DNA of 64,000 nucleotides from assembly GCF_003697815.1 (NCBI RefSeq), contig NZ_RDQG01000085.1, forward strand, positions 124,001 to 188,000, given 5' to 3'. How positions within the stretch are numbered: the stretch's first letter is position 1; the number at the start of each line of letters is the position of its first letter. Made by a program: the position numbers and the translations under genes. Under the pieces are notes generated by a model that did not search any database, was not told the DNA's origin, and saw only the letters and a program-made list of their open reading frames with translations. Positions 2,701 to 53,171 of the stretch are shown here, one piece after another. Origin of the DNA: Halalkalicoccus subterraneus. Its GTDB lineage: Archaea; Halobacteriota; Halobacteria; Halobacteriales; Halalkalicoccaceae.

Positions 2701-3199
2701 CAGAAGAGCGAACGCTGTACAGGAAGTAAGTAATGCAGTTGCTTATACATGAGCAACGATCAGTAACGACGATAAACTCAGTTGAATCGACCGAATCGAG
2801 ACCCGTTTCATCTGCTGGTTGAACCCCCATTGCGAACATTAATCGAGTGAACGGATCTCGTGTCTCATTCATCCGGTCCTCTCGTTCCTACCTCGGGTTG
2901 TCACGTGACACGTCTACCGGATAAAATTGCTGGTATATCGACGACGTTTGGAACGAACGCATCACATGAAAGGGAGTCTAATTAGTCCTCTCACGGATAG
3001 ATGCAGTAATCACCGCTAATCGGTATCCCTGACAGTCTTCGCCTGAATGAAGTCGCCTATACGGCTCGACACCTACCTATCGTATGAACAGTGTCAACAG
3101 CTATCAATGCCAAATGCGACCCTTATAATCGATATGAATCGAGTATGCATAATCGAGCGGAGTATCGACGCGATATCGGGAATAATGGGCCGACAAGCA
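2701..3199. other. Intergenic stretch ahead of the reductase leader region
   Basis: No supported gene. Open frames on either strand have poor codon bias and no recognisable motifs. The AT-richer part around 3120-3155 (CTTATAATCG, ATGCATAATCG) is the likeliest place for the promoter of the downstream mini-ORF/reductase transcript. Confidence 0.35.
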
Positions 3200-3240
3200 A
3201 TGAACGCCCGGGCGGAAATGTGGATTGCGGGGCGATCGGC

Positions 3241-3303
3241 GTGAACACGGTCACGGCGAATCCGTTCCTTATCCGGCTTCACCACCGGAGGTGGCTCAGA
3301 TGA
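3241..3303 (+). CDS. 20-codon leader ORF 1, coupled by start/stop overlaps
   Basis: A GTG-started ORF beginning MNTVTANPF and ending HHRRWLR. Its GTG overlaps the TGA of a preceding short ORF (ATG 3200, stop 3242-3244, starting MNARAE), and its own TGA overlaps the ATG of the next mini-ORF as ATGA. A GGGG-rich stretch precedes it. No function is known. The overlaps, and a start-to-start spacing of exactly 59 bases repeated in the next unit, suggest tandem duplication of a translation-initiation region rather than an ordinary protein gene. Confidence 0.4.
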   Translation: MNTVTANPFLIRLHHRRWLR

Positions 3304-3362
3304 ACACCGCCAGAGCGAGCTCTGGCGATCCCACATTCGGTCACGGAGGTGATCTCACATGA
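3300..3362 (+). CDS. 20-codon leader ORF 2, coupled to the siroheme reductase
   Basis: Begins MNTARASSG and ends HGGDLT. It has its own Shine-Dalgarno GGAGGTG at 3287-3293. Its TGA overlaps the ATG of the reductase gene as ATGA. Within it lies a perfect inverted repeat with arms CCAGAGC and GCTCTGG separated by GA, able to form a compact hairpin in the mRNA. Translation of this ORF could couple to, or attenuate, reductase translation. Whether the peptide is made is unknown. Confidence 0.45.
   Translation: MNTARASSGDPTFGHGGDLT
3345..3354 (+). promoter_or_regulatory. Very strong Shine-Dalgarno of the siroheme reductase gene
   Basis: GGAGGTGATC matches the anti-Shine-Dalgarno at the 3' end of archaeal 16S rRNA over its full length and sits at normal spacing before the ATG at 3359. 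It fixes the start of the reductase. Haloarchaeal genes are often leaderless, so such a complete site inside a polycistronic leader is notable. Confidence 0.75.
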
Positions 3363-5056
3363 ACACAGTCGAGGAGTGGAAACGGGAGAAACACCCGCTT
3401 GACGTCATCGACGACGTTTACGAGTACGCCGAGGAGGAGCTCTCGTTCGACGAGATCGAGGAGCGTGCGGGCGAGGGCGTCTGGGAGCGCATGAAGTGGA
3501 CCGGGATGTACACCCACGGCCGCCAGCGGGGCTACTTAATGATGCGCACGAAGGTCCCTGGGGGGTATCTCACACCCGAACAGGCCAAGGTAATCGGCGA
3601 GGTCGCAGACGAGTTCGCCACCGCCCCCGAAGAGTACGGCGGCAGCGAGCAGAACGAGCTGTGGGGCGACGCCTTCCTTGATATCACGACCCGGCAGGAC
3701 GTTCAAACACATTGGATCGAGATCGAGGACGTCCCCGAGGTCTGGGAGCGCTACGACGACGTGGGGCTGACGACGATACAGGGCTGTGGGGACGGCGCGC
3801 GGAACGTGCTCGGCTGTCCGGCTGCAGGCCTCGACGATCACGAGTGTTTCGATGCCCAGCCCGTGATCGACGCGGTCTCGGAGTTCTTCACGGGCAACCG
3901 CGAGTACGGCAACCTCCCCCGGAAGTTCAAGATGACGATCACGGGCTGCCGGCAGGACTGCGCCCAATCCCAGATCAACGACGTCGGGCTGGTGCCCGCC
4001 CGCAAGGACATCGCGGGCGAGCCCCACTACGGATTCCACGTCCGCGTCGGCGGCGGCCTCTCGGACGGCCCGCGGATGGGATCGGAACTCGACGTGTTCG
4101 TTCGCCCGGAGGACGCCGTCGAGTTCTGCCGTGCCGTGGCCCAGACGTTCAAGGAACTGGGCGACCGGCACAACCGCGGGGTCTGCCGGATGCGCTACCT
4201 CGTCCAGCAGATGGGCCCCGACGGGTTCGAACAGGCGGTTCGCGACCGGTGTTCGGTCGACCTGCGCTCTCGCGGGCGCGATCTCACCGAGGGCTATACC
4301 GGGGATCACGTCGGCGTCCACGACCAGCGCGAGGACGGCCTGCAGTACGTCGGCTTCAACGTGATCACGGGCCGGATGGGCGGTGATGAGTTCGTCGAGG
4401 CGGCCCGCGCGGCTCGCGAGTACGGTACCGAAGAGACGTCGATTCGGCTCGCGACCGATCAGAACTTCCTGATCAGCCACATTCCCGAGGAGAACGTCTC
4501 CAGCCTGCTCGCCGAACCCTTCGCCGCGGACTACCAGCCCGACCCCGGTCCCTTCTCGCGGGGCGCGGTCGGCTGTACCGGAAGCGAGTTCTGTAACTAC
4601 GGCATCATCGAGACCAAGAATCGAGTAAAGCGCTGGGCGCGCGAGCTCGACGAGCGCATCGAGACGCCCGACGACCTCGAAGTAGTCCGGATGCACATGA
4701 GCGGCTGTTCGGCCTCGTGTGCCCAGCCCCAGATCGCGGACATTGGCTTCCGCGGCGAGACAGTCCAACTGGACACCGACGGCGACGGAGACCCCGATGA
4801 CATCGTCGAGGGAATGGACTTCGGCCTCGGCGGCAGCCTCGGTCCCGACAACGACTTTCTCGACTGGGTCGAGACCGCGGTCCCCGCCGACGCCGTCATT
4901 CCCGCCTTGGAGGAGCTCTTTGCGGCCTACGGCGAGGAGCACGAGGACGGCGAGCGATTCTACGAGTGGACCCGGCGGGTCGACAACGACCGCTTGCGGA
5001 CGGTGATGCAGGGTGCGGAGGCACCCGTCTCAAAGGGGGTGGCCGCCGATGACTGA
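3359..5056 (+). CDS. Siroheme nitrite/sulfite reductase family protein
   Basis: A 565-residue assimilatory-type nitrite/sulfite reductase with two ferredoxin-like half domains around a siroheme/[4Fe-4S] centre. The cluster ligands are Cys406 and Cys412 (CTGSEFC) and Cys450 and Cys454 (CSASC), the usual C-x5-C plus C-x3-C pattern. The N-terminal half also contains a CRQDC motif followed by AQSQINDVG. The family reduces nitrite to ammonia or sulfite to sulfide by six electrons; sequence alone does not decide which. The gene overlaps the next gene by eight bases. That neighbour encodes an FrhB-type F420/ferredoxin protein, so electrons may come from F420H2 or ferredoxin. A sulfite-exporter-like gene nearby favours sulfite, while a second, distinct reductase at 51.4-53.2 kb looks like the nitrite enzyme. 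Confidence 0.88.
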   Translation: MNTVEEWKREKHPLDVIDDVYEYAEEELSFDEIEERAGEGVWERMKWTGMYTHGRQRGYLMMRTKVPGGYLTPEQAKVIGEVADEFATAPEEYGGSEQNELWGDAFLDITTRQDVQTHWIEIEDVPEVWERYDDVGLTTIQGCGDGARNVLGCPAAGLDDHECFDAQPVIDAVSEFFTGNREYGNLPRKFKMTITGCRQDCAQSQINDVGLVPARKDIAGEPHYGFHVRVGGGLSDGPRMGSELDVFVRPEDAVEFCRAVAQTFKELGDRHNRGVCRMRYLVQQMGPDGFEQAVRDRCSVDLRSRGRDLTEGYTGDHVGVHDQREDGLQYVGFNVITGRMGGDEFVEAARAAREYGTEETSIRLATDQNFLISHIPEENVSSLLAEPFAADYQPDPGPFSRGAVGCTGSEFCNYGIIETKNRVKRWARELDERIETPDDLEVVRMHMSGCSASCAQPQIADIGFRGETVQLDTDGDGDPDDIVEGMDFGLGGSLGPDNDFLDWVETAVPADAVIPALEELFAAYGEEHEDGERFYEWTRRVDNDRLRTVMQGAEAPVSKGVAADD

Positions 5057-6659
5057 TCCCGAACGCGATCGGGGTCCGCTTCCGAGCGTGCCCAAGGCGG
5101 GCAATGACGCCTCTGGAACGAGCGTCCCACCGACGAGTGGGGCACGCGACCCCGAAGGAACCGACCCCGACGCGAAGCCGATCCGGTACCGGCGGGCCGA
5201 TGAGGACGCCGAAACGGCCACGGACGATGTCGCCGACGGCTGTGGCTGTGGGAGCTGTGGCTGTGGCGACGGTGCAAGCGAGCGGGCCGATACGGCGGTC
5301 GCCGCCGACGGCAGCGGCGGCGCGGTCAACGTCGGTTCCGATGGAAGCCTCGGCGACGTCCAGTTCACCGAGCCCTCGACGGAGCCGACCCAGGACCTCT
5401 CGGACAACCCTGCCGAGCGCGTCGGCGTCCCCGACGGCGTCGAGCTCGACACTCCATCCTACTCGATCCGGAGCGAGATGAACGACATCGAGACGCCGGA
5501 CGAGAAGACCTGGTTCATGGAGCTCGACGCGGCCGTCATCGACGACGGCCGCTGTATCCAGTGTGGTACCTGCGTCGCCGCGTGTCCCTCCGACTCGATC
5601 GGGATCGGCGACGACGACCTGCCCGAGCTCGTAAAGATGTGTACCGGCTGTTCGCTCTGCTGGGACTTCTGTCCCCGCGGCGGCCTGCGCTACGAGCGCC
5701 AGTGGAAGATCACGGGCGGCGAGGACAACGTCAAGGGCGCGGGCGACCCGATCACGGAGTTCTCCGCGAAGGTCGGCGAGTCCTGGCAGCGAAACGCCCA
5801 GGACGGCGGCGTCGTCACCAGCGTCCTCTCGCACCTGCTCGAGGCTGGCGAGATTGACGGCGCGCTGATCGCCACCGAGTCCGACGACGAGCCCTGGAAG
5901 GCAGAAAGCTTCCTCGCGACGAGCCACGAGGAGGTCGTCGCGAACGCGGGCAGTTTCTATAACCAGACGATGGCGCTCGGTAACCTCGATCTGGATCGCT
6001 GGGAACACAAGCTGCCTGACAAGCCCGCGGAGGAGATCAGCCTCGCGATGGTAGGGACGCCCTGCGAGATCGAGGGGATCCGCGCGCTGCAGGACTTCGA
6101 GTGGGACTACCAGTCCCAGAACGCGGGCGTTCGCGCGATCGACTACACCATCGCGCTGATGTGTACGAAGAACTTCAACTATCACAGGCTCATCGGCGAG
6201 CAGCTAGCGGAGAAACGCGGAATCACCACCGATGAAATCGGGAAGATGGACGTGCTTCACGGCGACATGATCGTCTACGACCACGAGGGTGAGGAGATCC
6301 TGCGCGAGGACGTCACGGAGTTCCACGACGCCACCCTCAAGGGCTGTGACGAGTGTGCGGACTTCACGGGCTTCTGTGCGGATCTCACCGTCGGCTCCGT
6401 GGGATCGGGCGACGAGTACTCGAGCGTCATCGTCCGCACCGAGCGCGGAATGGACGCCTGGGAACTGACCGCGCCGGATCTCGACTACCACGACTTGGAG
6501 GACAAGAGCGCGGTCGGTAAGCTCCAGGGCTGGGACAAGAAGAAGGCCTTCGAGTCGCTCGAACGCCCGTTTGACCCCGATGCACCGCGGTTCATTGAGT
6601 ACACCGAGCACGCCGAGAACTACGGGACGACGCTCAACCCTCACGAGAGCGATCACTAA
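5049..6659 (+). CDS. Coenzyme F420 hydrogenase/dehydrogenase beta-subunit (FrhB-type) protein with 4Fe-4S domain
   Basis: A 536-residue soluble electron-transfer protein. Residues 1 to about 160 are acidic and low in complexity, with an unusual Cys-Gly run CGCGSCGCG at about 65-73. Two ferredoxin-type clusters follow: CIQCGTCVAACP at about 169-180 and CTGCSLCWDFCP at about 198-209. The rest is the FrhB-type flavin/F420 region with MVGTPCEIEGIRALQ, ALMCTKNFNYH and GCDECADFTGFCADLTVGSVGSGDEYSSV. I chose ATG at 5049, which overlaps the reductase stop. Members of this family pass electrons between F420H2, FAD and FeS partners. The tight overlap with a siroheme reductase suggests it is the electron donor, like a split version of methanogen F420-dependent sulfite reductase (Fsr). 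That role is inference. Confidence 0.85.
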   Translation: MTDPERDRGPLPSVPKAGNDASGTSVPPTSGARDPEGTDPDAKPIRYRRADEDAETATDDVADGCGCGSCGCGDGASERADTAVAADGSGGAVNVGSDGSLGDVQFTEPSTEPTQDLSDNPAERVGVPDGVELDTPSYSIRSEMNDIETPDEKTWFMELDAAVIDDGRCIQCGTCVAACPSDSIGIGDDDLPELVKMCTGCSLCWDFCPRGGLRYERQWKITGGEDNVKGAGDPITEFSAKVGESWQRNAQDGGVVTSVLSHLLEAGEIDGALIATESDDEPWKAESFLATSHEEVVANAGSFYNQTMALGNLDLDRWEHKLPDKPAEEISLAMVGTPCEIEGIRALQDFEWDYQSQNAGVRAIDYTIALMCTKNFNYHRLIGEQLAEKRGITTDEIGKMDVLHGDMIVYDHEGEEILREDVTEFHDATLKGCDECADFTGFCADLTVGSVGSGDEYSSVIVRTERGMDAWELTAPDLDYHDLEDKSAVGKLQGWDKKKAFESLERPFDPDAPRFIEYTEHAENYGTTLNPHESDH

Positions 6660-51404: not shown

Positions 51405-53171
51405 TCAGTCGTCCATAGCGATCGGAACCCCGTTCTCGTTGGTCGGTGCGGGACTCTCGCTGTCGTCGAACGGGTACCACGACTGCTTCGCGTCGGTCAG
51501 AGAGAGGTCCTCGTAGCCGTCTACCTCCTCGGGCTCGGCGAGTTCGACGATGGTTTCGTGGCCGGTCGCATCGACCCAGTCGCGGAACGTCTGCTCGTCC
51601 GTCCGCAGCGCGGCGTAGGCCTCGATGATGTTTTTGAGCATGCCGGGCACCTCGTCGGCCGGAACGCGCTGGCGAACCCACTCGATGAACGCCGGTTCGG
51701 TCCCGATACCGCCGCCGATACCGACGTCCATCGCCTCGACCATCTCCCCGTCCTTGCGCGCGCGCATCCCCTGGAGGCCGATATCCGCGGTCATCGCCTG
51801 GCCGCAGTCGGCGGTACACCCTGAGACGTGGATCTTGATCCGATCGATGTCGTCCGGCACCTCGACGTTGTTCCGGAGCCAGCGCAGCAAGCGCGCCGTT
51901 CGTGCCTTCGTTTCGACGAGCGCGATCGAGCAGAACTCCGTTCCGGTACACGCCATTCCCCCCTGAACGAACGGGTTGGGCTCAGGCGTGTGAGTTCCCA
52001 GAAGCGGTTCGGCGAGCAGCTCGTCGAGCCGGTCGTCGGGGACGTCCATGATCAGCGGGTTCTGTCGACGGGTCAGGCGAACCTCGCCGCTCCCGTATTC
52101 GTCGGCGAGATCCGCAAGCTCGATGGCCTCCTCGGCCGGGAGACGCCCGACCGGGACCGAGAGCCCGACGTAGTTCCGATCGTCCTCCTGATCGTAGACG
52201 CCGACGTGATCGTGGGCGCCCTGCTCCGCCGGGAGACCGGCGTTGTAGGTGTACTCGCCGCGGAAGTTCGTCCCCGCGGTTTCGAGCGGGAACGAAAGGC
52301 GCTCTTCGAGGGCTTCCCGGATCGCGTCGGTCCCCCAGTCGTCGACGAAAAAGCGCGCGCGGTTCTTCGAGCGGTTCTGCCGGTTGCCCTCCTCGTGGTA
52401 GAGCTCGACGAACGCTCGGACGGTTTCGACAGCATGCTCCGGGCGAACGAACAGATCCAACGATCGGGCGGGCCGCGGTTCGCGACCGCCGAGTCCGCCG
52501 CCGACTCGCACGTTGAACCCTTCGACCTCCGTCCCGTCGATGAACTTGTGGGCCGGTTCGAGGCCGATGTCGTTGATCGAGTCCTGCGCGCAGCCCTGTC
52601 GACAGCCCGACACGGAGATGTTGAACTTCCGGGGCATGTTCGAGAGGGCGTCGTCGTCCCGGATCGTCTCCTGGATCTCGTCGAGGATCGGCCGGGAGTC
52701 GACGTACTCCTCGGCCTTGCCGGCGACGGGACAGCCCGAGATGTTACGCATCGTATCCCCGCCGGCCGACCGCGACGAGACGCCGACGGCTTCGAGCTTG
52801 TCCCAGATCTCCGGGACGTCCTCCAGTTTGAGCCAGTGCAGCTGCACGGACTGGCGGGTGGTGAGGTCGATCCACCCGTTCCCGAACTCGGGGTTCTCTG
52901 CGGGACCCTTAGCATACTCGCGTGCGATCTCGCCGATCGCGCGGAGCTGGTCCGGTTCGAGGATCCCGCCGCAGTTGGTCAGGCGCATCATGAAGTACGA
53001 TTCCTGACCGCTGCGTTGGTGGAAGATACCCCAAAACTTGAACCGCGTGAACCAGTCCTCGCGTTCGTCCTCCGGGATCGCGTCCCACCCCTTCTCGGCG
53101 AACGCTTCGAGTTTCTCCCTGACTGCGTCGCCGTACAACTCCTCTTTGACGTGCTCTTTTTTGTGAACCAT
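51405..53171 (-). CDS. nasD: Ferredoxin-nitrite reductase type siroheme enzyme (assimilatory)
   Basis: A 588-residue nitrite/sulfite reductase. Cluster ligands are Cys408/Cys414 (CTGTEFC) and Cys452/Cys456 (CTADC). GCRQGCAQDSINDIGLEPA lies in the N-terminal half and ISGCPVAGKAEE precedes it. From memory, the N-terminal segment MVHKKEHVKEELYGDAV and FKFWGIFHQR resembles haloarchaeal assimilatory nitrite reductase NasD, which reduces nitrite to ammonium with ferredoxin. It differs clearly from the reductase at 3359-5056. A NarK-type transporter is encoded 5 kb away, but no nitrate reductase is in the window. Gene name is by resemblance and should be treated as provisional. Confidence 0.86.
   Translation of the reverse strand: MVHKKEHVKEELYGDAVREKLEAFAEKGWDAIPEDEREDWFTRFKFWGIFHQRSGQESYFMMRLTNCGGILEPDQLRAIGEIAREYAKGPAENPEFGNGWIDLTTRQSVQLHWLKLEDVPEIWDKLEAVGVSSRSAGGDTMRNISGCPVAGKAEEYVDSRPILDEIQETIRDDDALSNMPRKFNISVSGCRQGCAQDSINDIGLEPAHKFIDGTEVEGFNVRVGGGLGGREPRPARSLDLFVRPEHAVETVRAFVELYHEEGNRQNRSKNRARFFVDDWGTDAIREALEERLSFPLETAGTNFRGEYTYNAGLPAEQGAHDHVGVYDQEDDRNYVGLSVPVGRLPAEEAIELADLADEYGSGEVRLTRRQNPLIMDVPDDRLDELLAEPLLGTHTPEPNPFVQGGMACTGTEFCSIALVETKARTARLLRWLRNNVEVPDDIDRIKIHVSGCTADCGQAMTADIGLQGMRARKDGEMVEAMDVGIGGGIGTEPAFIEWVRQRVPADEVPGMLKNIIEAYAALRTDEQTFRDWVDATGHETIVELAEPEEVDGYEDLSLTDAKQSWYPFDDSESPAPTNENGVPIAMDD

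Follow-up and report, generated by a model that had tools for sequence, protein, structure and literature searches.

We analysed the leader of a siroheme reductase gene in the window, by which we mean the whole 64-kb stretch of DNA under study. The features of this locus are given below, with the basis of each in brackets.

3030..3043, plus strand: promoter-proximal motif TGACAGTCTTCGCC (upstream alignment of six Halalkalicoccus genomes and one remnant copy)
3056..3064, plus strand: TATA-box-like element CCTATACGG, 23-26 nt before ATG 3084 (sister-species alignment)
3084..3128, plus strand: probable leaderless starter ORF MNSVNSYQCQMRPL (alignment; predicted translation)
3134..3244, plus strand: second leader ORF (MNRVCII...RSA, then stop), which includes ATG 3200 and whose TGA overlaps GTG 3241 (open frame)
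3241..3303, plus strand: element copy 1, a 59-nt unit with terminal NTGA, mini-ORF VNTVTANPFLIRLHHRRWLR followed by a stop (covariance model R1)
3282..3294, plus strand: inner stem of hairpin H2 of copy 1, CCACC-GGA-GGTGG, around the Shine-Dalgarno (SD) site GGAGGTG 3287-3293 (sequence; family covariation)
3300..3362, plus strand: element copy 2, mini-ORF MNTARASSGDPTFGHGGDLT followed by a stop (covariance model R1)
3308..3327, plus strand: hairpin H1 of copy 2, CGCCAGAGC/GCTCTGGCG (fold; family covariation)
3339..3354, plus strand: hairpin H2 of copy 2, GGTCACGGAGGTGATC, around the reductase SD 3345-3351 (fold; family covariation)
3359..5056, plus strand: host gene, NIR_SIR-family siroheme reductase (Pfam PF01077, E 3.5e-52; PF03460, E 2.3e-27)
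5049..6659, plus strand: next gene, FrhB/FdhB-like iron-sulfur protein, start overlapping the reductase end (Pfam PF04432, PF04422)

The reductase at 3359 was 88% identical to that of Halalkalicoccus paucihalophilus, its closest named relative. It did not reach the NCBIfam cut-offs for assignment as a nitrite or sulfite reductase. A paralogous siroheme reductase lies on the minus strand of the window at 51552-53102 (42% identical to the one at 3359), and a third paralogue was identified on contig C73. In another genome we observed the remnant of a second reductase copy (L095, G001:C2:403415-403543), which comprises the first ~42 codons with an in-frame TAA and keeps a TATA-like box and a short leader ORF, MNIVTEYQYSPVGDHVRWSL, ahead of it. 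Within the motif at 3030-3043 the string TTCGCC was invariant across Halalkalicoccus in the upstream alignment. It apparently also stands before the reductases of other genera and may be a regulator site. ATG 3084 was retained in six of the seven aligned reductase upstream regions. The distance between the TATA-like element and this ATG is typical for leaderless haloarchaeal genes.

GTG 3241, ATG 3300 and ATG 3359 follow one another in steps of 59 nt, and each opens with (A/G)TGAACAC, as the first-pass annotation had stated. This string was found six times on the plus strand of the 64-kb window, three of them at this leader. The stop-over-start overlaps reported there are also real: the ORFs 3200-3244, 3241-3303 and 3300-3362 each place their TGA on the next start (NTGA). 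A GGAGGTG-like site had been assigned to all three starts. We observed it before 3300 (3287-3293) and 3359 (3345-3351), but only GGGGCG before 3241. The early ORF had been taken to begin at ATG 3200; its overlap with 3241 stands, but its proposed beginning does not, as the frame is open back to ATG 3134, and the open frame does not fix the choice between these two starts. The hairpin described in the second unit was confirmed, with GCCAGAGC (3309-3316) pairing with GCTCTGGC (3319-3326). Any gene that begins with Met-Asn supplies NTGA for free, and therefore the overlap alone is no evidence.

Alignment of 20 units defined the element as a unit of ~59 nt with NTGA at both ends, composed of a start codon, H1, a spacer and H2. 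H1 is a hairpin of variable sequence that follows the start codon of the unit. H2 encloses the SD site of the next gene and, for most copies, its start codon as well. In the outer stem of H2, UCANGC is paired with a GCNUGA located at that start codon; the inner stem flanks the SD. In the 20-unit set we observed two-sided changes in 13 of 18 pairs, and the covariation score was 0.529, compared with 0.190 for shuffled alignments and at most 0.17 for controls in which the partner was slid. The larger alignment of 82 rows, which was fitted to the model and includes a few antisense or weak rows, gave two-sided changes in 15 of 17 pairs (score 0.491, shuffled 0.176); for H1 these were found in 8/8 pairs. 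H1 and H2 are maintained by compensatory change. Model R2 lacks H1 owing to misalignment by MAFFT, hence it was used for searching only. Rfam covariance models returned only a tRNA, and no match to the unit, in the window and five loci.

The two copies in the window differ in how clearly they display this structure. Against model R1, copy 2 (3300) scored 60.9 bits (E 6.5e-17) and copy 1 (3241) 35.7 bits (E 4e-9 in the window), each copy being itself part of the training set. The fold of copy 2 (-22.6 kcal/mol) was lower than that of 300/300 mononucleotide shuffles. Copy 1 has a weak H1 and, folded alone, was no better than its shuffles. The stability of the 140-nt region as a whole was unremarkable (z -0.63).

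Units were first recognised before orthologous reductases of Halalkalicoccus and of other genera, among them Salinigranum, Halegenticoccus, Salinarchaeum, Halosimplex, Saliphagus and Natronoglomus. Within Halalkalicoccus the leaders of these orthologues carry 0, 1 or 2 units, and the reductases of genome G003 and of H. paucihalophilus have none. The covariance model identified further junctions in the same genus, before genes for a DtxR/MntR-type regulator, an aminotransferase, methionine synthase, MnhB, a permease, LeuC and GatA (the last two names, like EtfA below, were read off the sequence or follow the broad Pfam family). At the dtxR junction there are one to three units, in several genera. 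Further junctions, in Halalkalicoccus and in other genera, place the unit ahead of LysX/RimK-like ligases, an amino-acid kinase, an SBF-family transporter, GcvP, a DEAD-box helicase, and EtfA-like, SucD and MoeA proteins. By models R1 and R2, about 19 or more unrelated host groups carry the unit at a stop/start junction.

Across the order, at least 46 of 146 genomes and at least 22 of 49 sampled haloarchaeal genera gave matches at E<=1e-5; both figures are lower bounds, since few candidates were scored per genome. When 197 genomes were drawn from the phylum, ten gave matches, all in the same order. In 1.2 Mb of a sister chromosome the model gave five matches with E below 1e-3. Four loci account for these (aminotransferase, reductase, SucD-like and EtfA-like), all of them co-oriented NTGA junctions, and the fifth match was an antisense echo. 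A body-only HMM without the NTGA ends recovered above noise, in the same 1.2 Mb, only NTGA-flanked copies. Strong matches, checked on both strands, were co-oriented with the downstream gene (4/4 loci in the 1.2-Mb sample).

Several weak model matches (L209, L210, L211, L212, L215, L219 and L227) were rejected as other palindromic repeats and not junction units. L209 (G037:C2:1043650-1044085) consists of at least seven identical tandem 53-bp repeats with an H1-like palindrome; the array lies where an apparent cyclophilin-type gene has its 3' end and is antisense to that gene. The repeat length of 53 is 2 mod 3, so that open frames chain; a coupled gene was not established. L166-L169 (G071), L179, L189, L210, L215 and L227 are short palindromic repeats away from start/stop overlaps. 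They share H1 plus CTCNC...CTCGC with the unit and possibly belong to a wider family. At L158:2034-2267 several unit-like segments are fused into one open frame of 77 codons, whose stop still lies in the NTGA belonging to a gene for an ABC-2 type membrane protein.

We counted 63 distinct units bounded by NTGA on either side, 60 of them with a length of 2 mod 3 and three with a length of 0 mod 3. The latter are 57 nt long, run in frame into the following segment and end at the next NTGA, and none of the 63 interrupts the reading path. When only lengths other than 59 nt were considered, 18 of 21 units were 2 mod 3 (p=1e-6 assuming independence, a value that is inflated if indel lengths partly share ancestry). 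The peptides themselves were not conserved (pN/pS 0.94; control frames gave 0.59 and 1.30, so this measure is also distorted by structure), which speaks against a peptide function. Because frame lengths are kept while pN/pS is 0.94, selection appears to act on the continuity of translation and not on the peptide. A screen for sandwiched mini-ORFs by frame only was abandoned, as its 65 candidates in 1.2 Mb were mostly chance or antisense.

We also compared orthologous stop/start sites among Halalkalicoccus genomes. The metE (methionine synthase) junction was bare in four genomes, e.g. GGTGACGGC ATGA GCAATC, and in two genomes it held a 59-nt unit with ATGA on either side. The mnhB junction was bare in three genomes, filled in two, and in one it had an 86-nt coupled variant. 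For the aminotransferase, two junctions were bare and five carried one or two units, some of only 41-44 nt. The number of tandem units per junction was 0-3. Clean insertion at NTGA would leave just such a pattern of bare and filled sites. An empty site does not by itself tell gain from loss, and loss may account for individual cases.

Mycobacterial interspersed repetitive units (MIRUs) were reportedly described by Supply et al. in 1997. We consider it likely that the mini-ORFs before the reductase are two copies of a dispersed, MIRU-like insertion element of haloarchaea that preserves coupling by termination and reinitiation. The mechanism that we infer from sequence is a relay. A ribosome finishing the upstream ORF would reinitiate on the mini-ORF, translate its ~20 codons, melting H1 and H2, stop at the terminal TGA of the unit and then reinitiate on the next ORF. 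Until it arrives, H2 would keep the next SD and start covered and limit de novo entry. Because NTGA stands at both ends of the unit, neither the stop upstream nor the start downstream is lost, and insertion would be nearly silent for operon expression. In the window the cascade would probably run from the leaderless ORF 3084 through 3134, 3241 and 3300 to the reductase at 3359.

What is known of Haloferax volcanii bears on such a relay. In overlapping gene pairs, translation of the downstream gene is strictly dependent on translation of the upstream one (PMC6728339). Termination-reinitiation studies found that removal of the SD reduces reinitiation in most tested pairs and abolishes it in none. 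Leaderless transcripts are described in haloarchaea, and SD sites are not used at 5'-UTRs in H. volcanii (PMC3986360). Reinitiation needs very short distances (PMC10666635), and therefore an insertion without NTGA ends of its own would be expected to uncouple the operon.

The first-pass annotation had read the leader as a repeated translation-initiation module kept as a chain of coupled mini-ORFs, and this holds, since overlaps and hairpins are conserved in other haloarchaea. It had further proposed tandem duplication of a translation-initiation region. Were this the start region of the reductase (SD plus Met-Asn-Thr), duplicated locally, the Met-Asn-Thr common to all three starts and the spacing of exactly 59 would fit, as would the resemblance between the second codon of the unit and that of the downstream gene (seen in 7.5 of 19 families where 3.2 would be expected; p about 0.007). 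However, the body of the unit is unrelated to the reductase coding sequence and is found elsewhere. Copies 1 and 2 agree at just 28/59 bases; their body identity (45%) is no higher than that of random family members (mean 51%), whereas copy 1 shares 75% identity with a Salinigranum unit and 67-69% with units at the dtxR and mnhB junctions. Different subtypes thus lie side by side in the window, which argues against recent local duplication, and we regard a simple event of this kind as improbable, although multi-unit arrays may be created by tandem duplication. The annotation had also suggested that a translational attenuator may control reductase synthesis. In a reductase-specific form of this idea, mini-ORFs and hairpins would sense a signal (e.g. 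sulfur or nitrogen status) and gate synthesis. Units or other coupled leader ORFs do stand ahead of many orthologous reductases, H2 covers the SD and start, and within the genus both the motif upstream and the starter ORF are conserved. Yet the same unit precedes many unrelated genes, its peptides are not conserved, and a residue-rich leader was not seen. Nor is an obligatory attenuator supported, given same-genus orthologues with 0, 1 or 2 units. We hold this explanation to be very doubtful.

It is conceivable, and we entertain it tentatively, that the unit is a domesticated translational relay, retained to tune the ratios of adjacent operon genes and spread by recombination or duplication instead of mobility. 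Compensatory changes hold both hairpins in diverged copies, whereas purely selfish dead copies would lose them, and the recurrence of one to three units at the dtxR junction in several genera points the same way. Against it, presence at one and the same junction is patchy between sister species, and the host genes have no common function. A domesticated relay and a MIRU-like insertion element are not mutually exclusive. That GC-rich DNA yields such open frames and NTGA overlaps by chance is barely credible for the units: NTGA is automatic for Met-Asn starts, and sandwiched open frames are common in the loose screen of 1.2 Mb, but covariation, model scores and empty sites refute it. For ORFs 3084 and 3134 a chance origin is possible.

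The MIRU-like insertion element that we favour can be placed among known systems. By definition a MIRU is a dispersed unit that lacks dyad symmetry and whose small ORF overlaps the ORFs on either side and runs in their direction (PMC4473831). MIRUs are regarded as mobile elements that insert at starts with a coupling of -4 (PMC12548453). The haloarchaeal units are likewise short, dispersed, sometimes tandem and oriented with the operon, in many operons and with variable tandem number. They sit at start/stop overlaps with -4 nt (NTGA) coupling, so that the downstream gene stays coupled, and their small ORF overlaps both neighbouring ORFs (60 of 63 run from NTGA to NTGA, three are fused in frame). 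In contrast to MIRUs, they contain dyad symmetry in the form of two covarying hairpins, and they are haloarchaeal and not mycobacterial, found here in one order only. We therefore liken the element to a MIRU in the way it works and do not class it as one, the comparison being with published descriptions of MIRUs.

The IS605-related PATEs of Haloquadratum have near-terminal palindromes and short terminal oligonucleotides (PMC3119063). The units share with them the haloarchaeal host, short length and lack of transposase coding. H1, H2 and the NTGA ends would fit PATE geometry, but translation selects the same features. PATEs are not described at stop/start overlaps or as translated, and no parent IS605-type element with common ends was found for the units in the fetched flanks of Halalkalicoccus TnpA genes. 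Overlapping pairs of H. volcanii (PMC6728339, PMC10666635) also have an NTGA overlap and an SD inside the upstream ORF, but those are ordinary genes, while here a repeated relay ORF of ~20 codons is interposed. Attenuators of the erm type resemble the units in having a leader ORF and a hairpin that hides the SD and start of the next gene; they differ in that the units show no stall peptide and stand at many unrelated host genes. By eye we saw no alternative pairing between H1 and H2.

With regard to mobility, no transposition event or mobilising enzyme was seen in the genomes examined. IS200-type TnpA (PF01797) was present in three of seven Halalkalicoccus genomes, and units in all seven. The fetched flanks of the TnpA genes of the genus contained no convincing unit (best match 15 bits, E 0.004). 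Copies within one genome have diverged, and therefore the spread is old. A target-site duplication beyond NTGA was not upheld, with only positions 1, 5 and 6 clearly above chance in comparison with the downstream gene, which is suggestive at most. One could picture a candidate archaeal mobile class that targets the stop/start overlap and inserts after NTGA as a single strand, in the manner of IS200/IS605. Pairing between the terminal NTGA and the foot of H2 on its 5' side (TCAN) would be the guide, and this pairing would afterwards act as a translational lock, opened only by a terminating ribosome. We regard this scheme as unlikely.

MIRU-type elements, which enter operons without breaking them by means of their own relay ORF, are described from mycobacteria, and we found no report of them from archaea in the literature searched. 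A haloarchaeal counterpart with covarying structure would amount to a parallel solution from a different domain, in hosts whose SD sites reportedly act in reinitiation and not at 5'-UTRs. Natural pairs of empty and filled junctions would offer a gauge of the cost of a relay ORF or of its tuning of expression. The units also reveal a class of ORFs, ~20 codons in length, that could be mistaken for functional microproteins in ribosome profiling or annotation.
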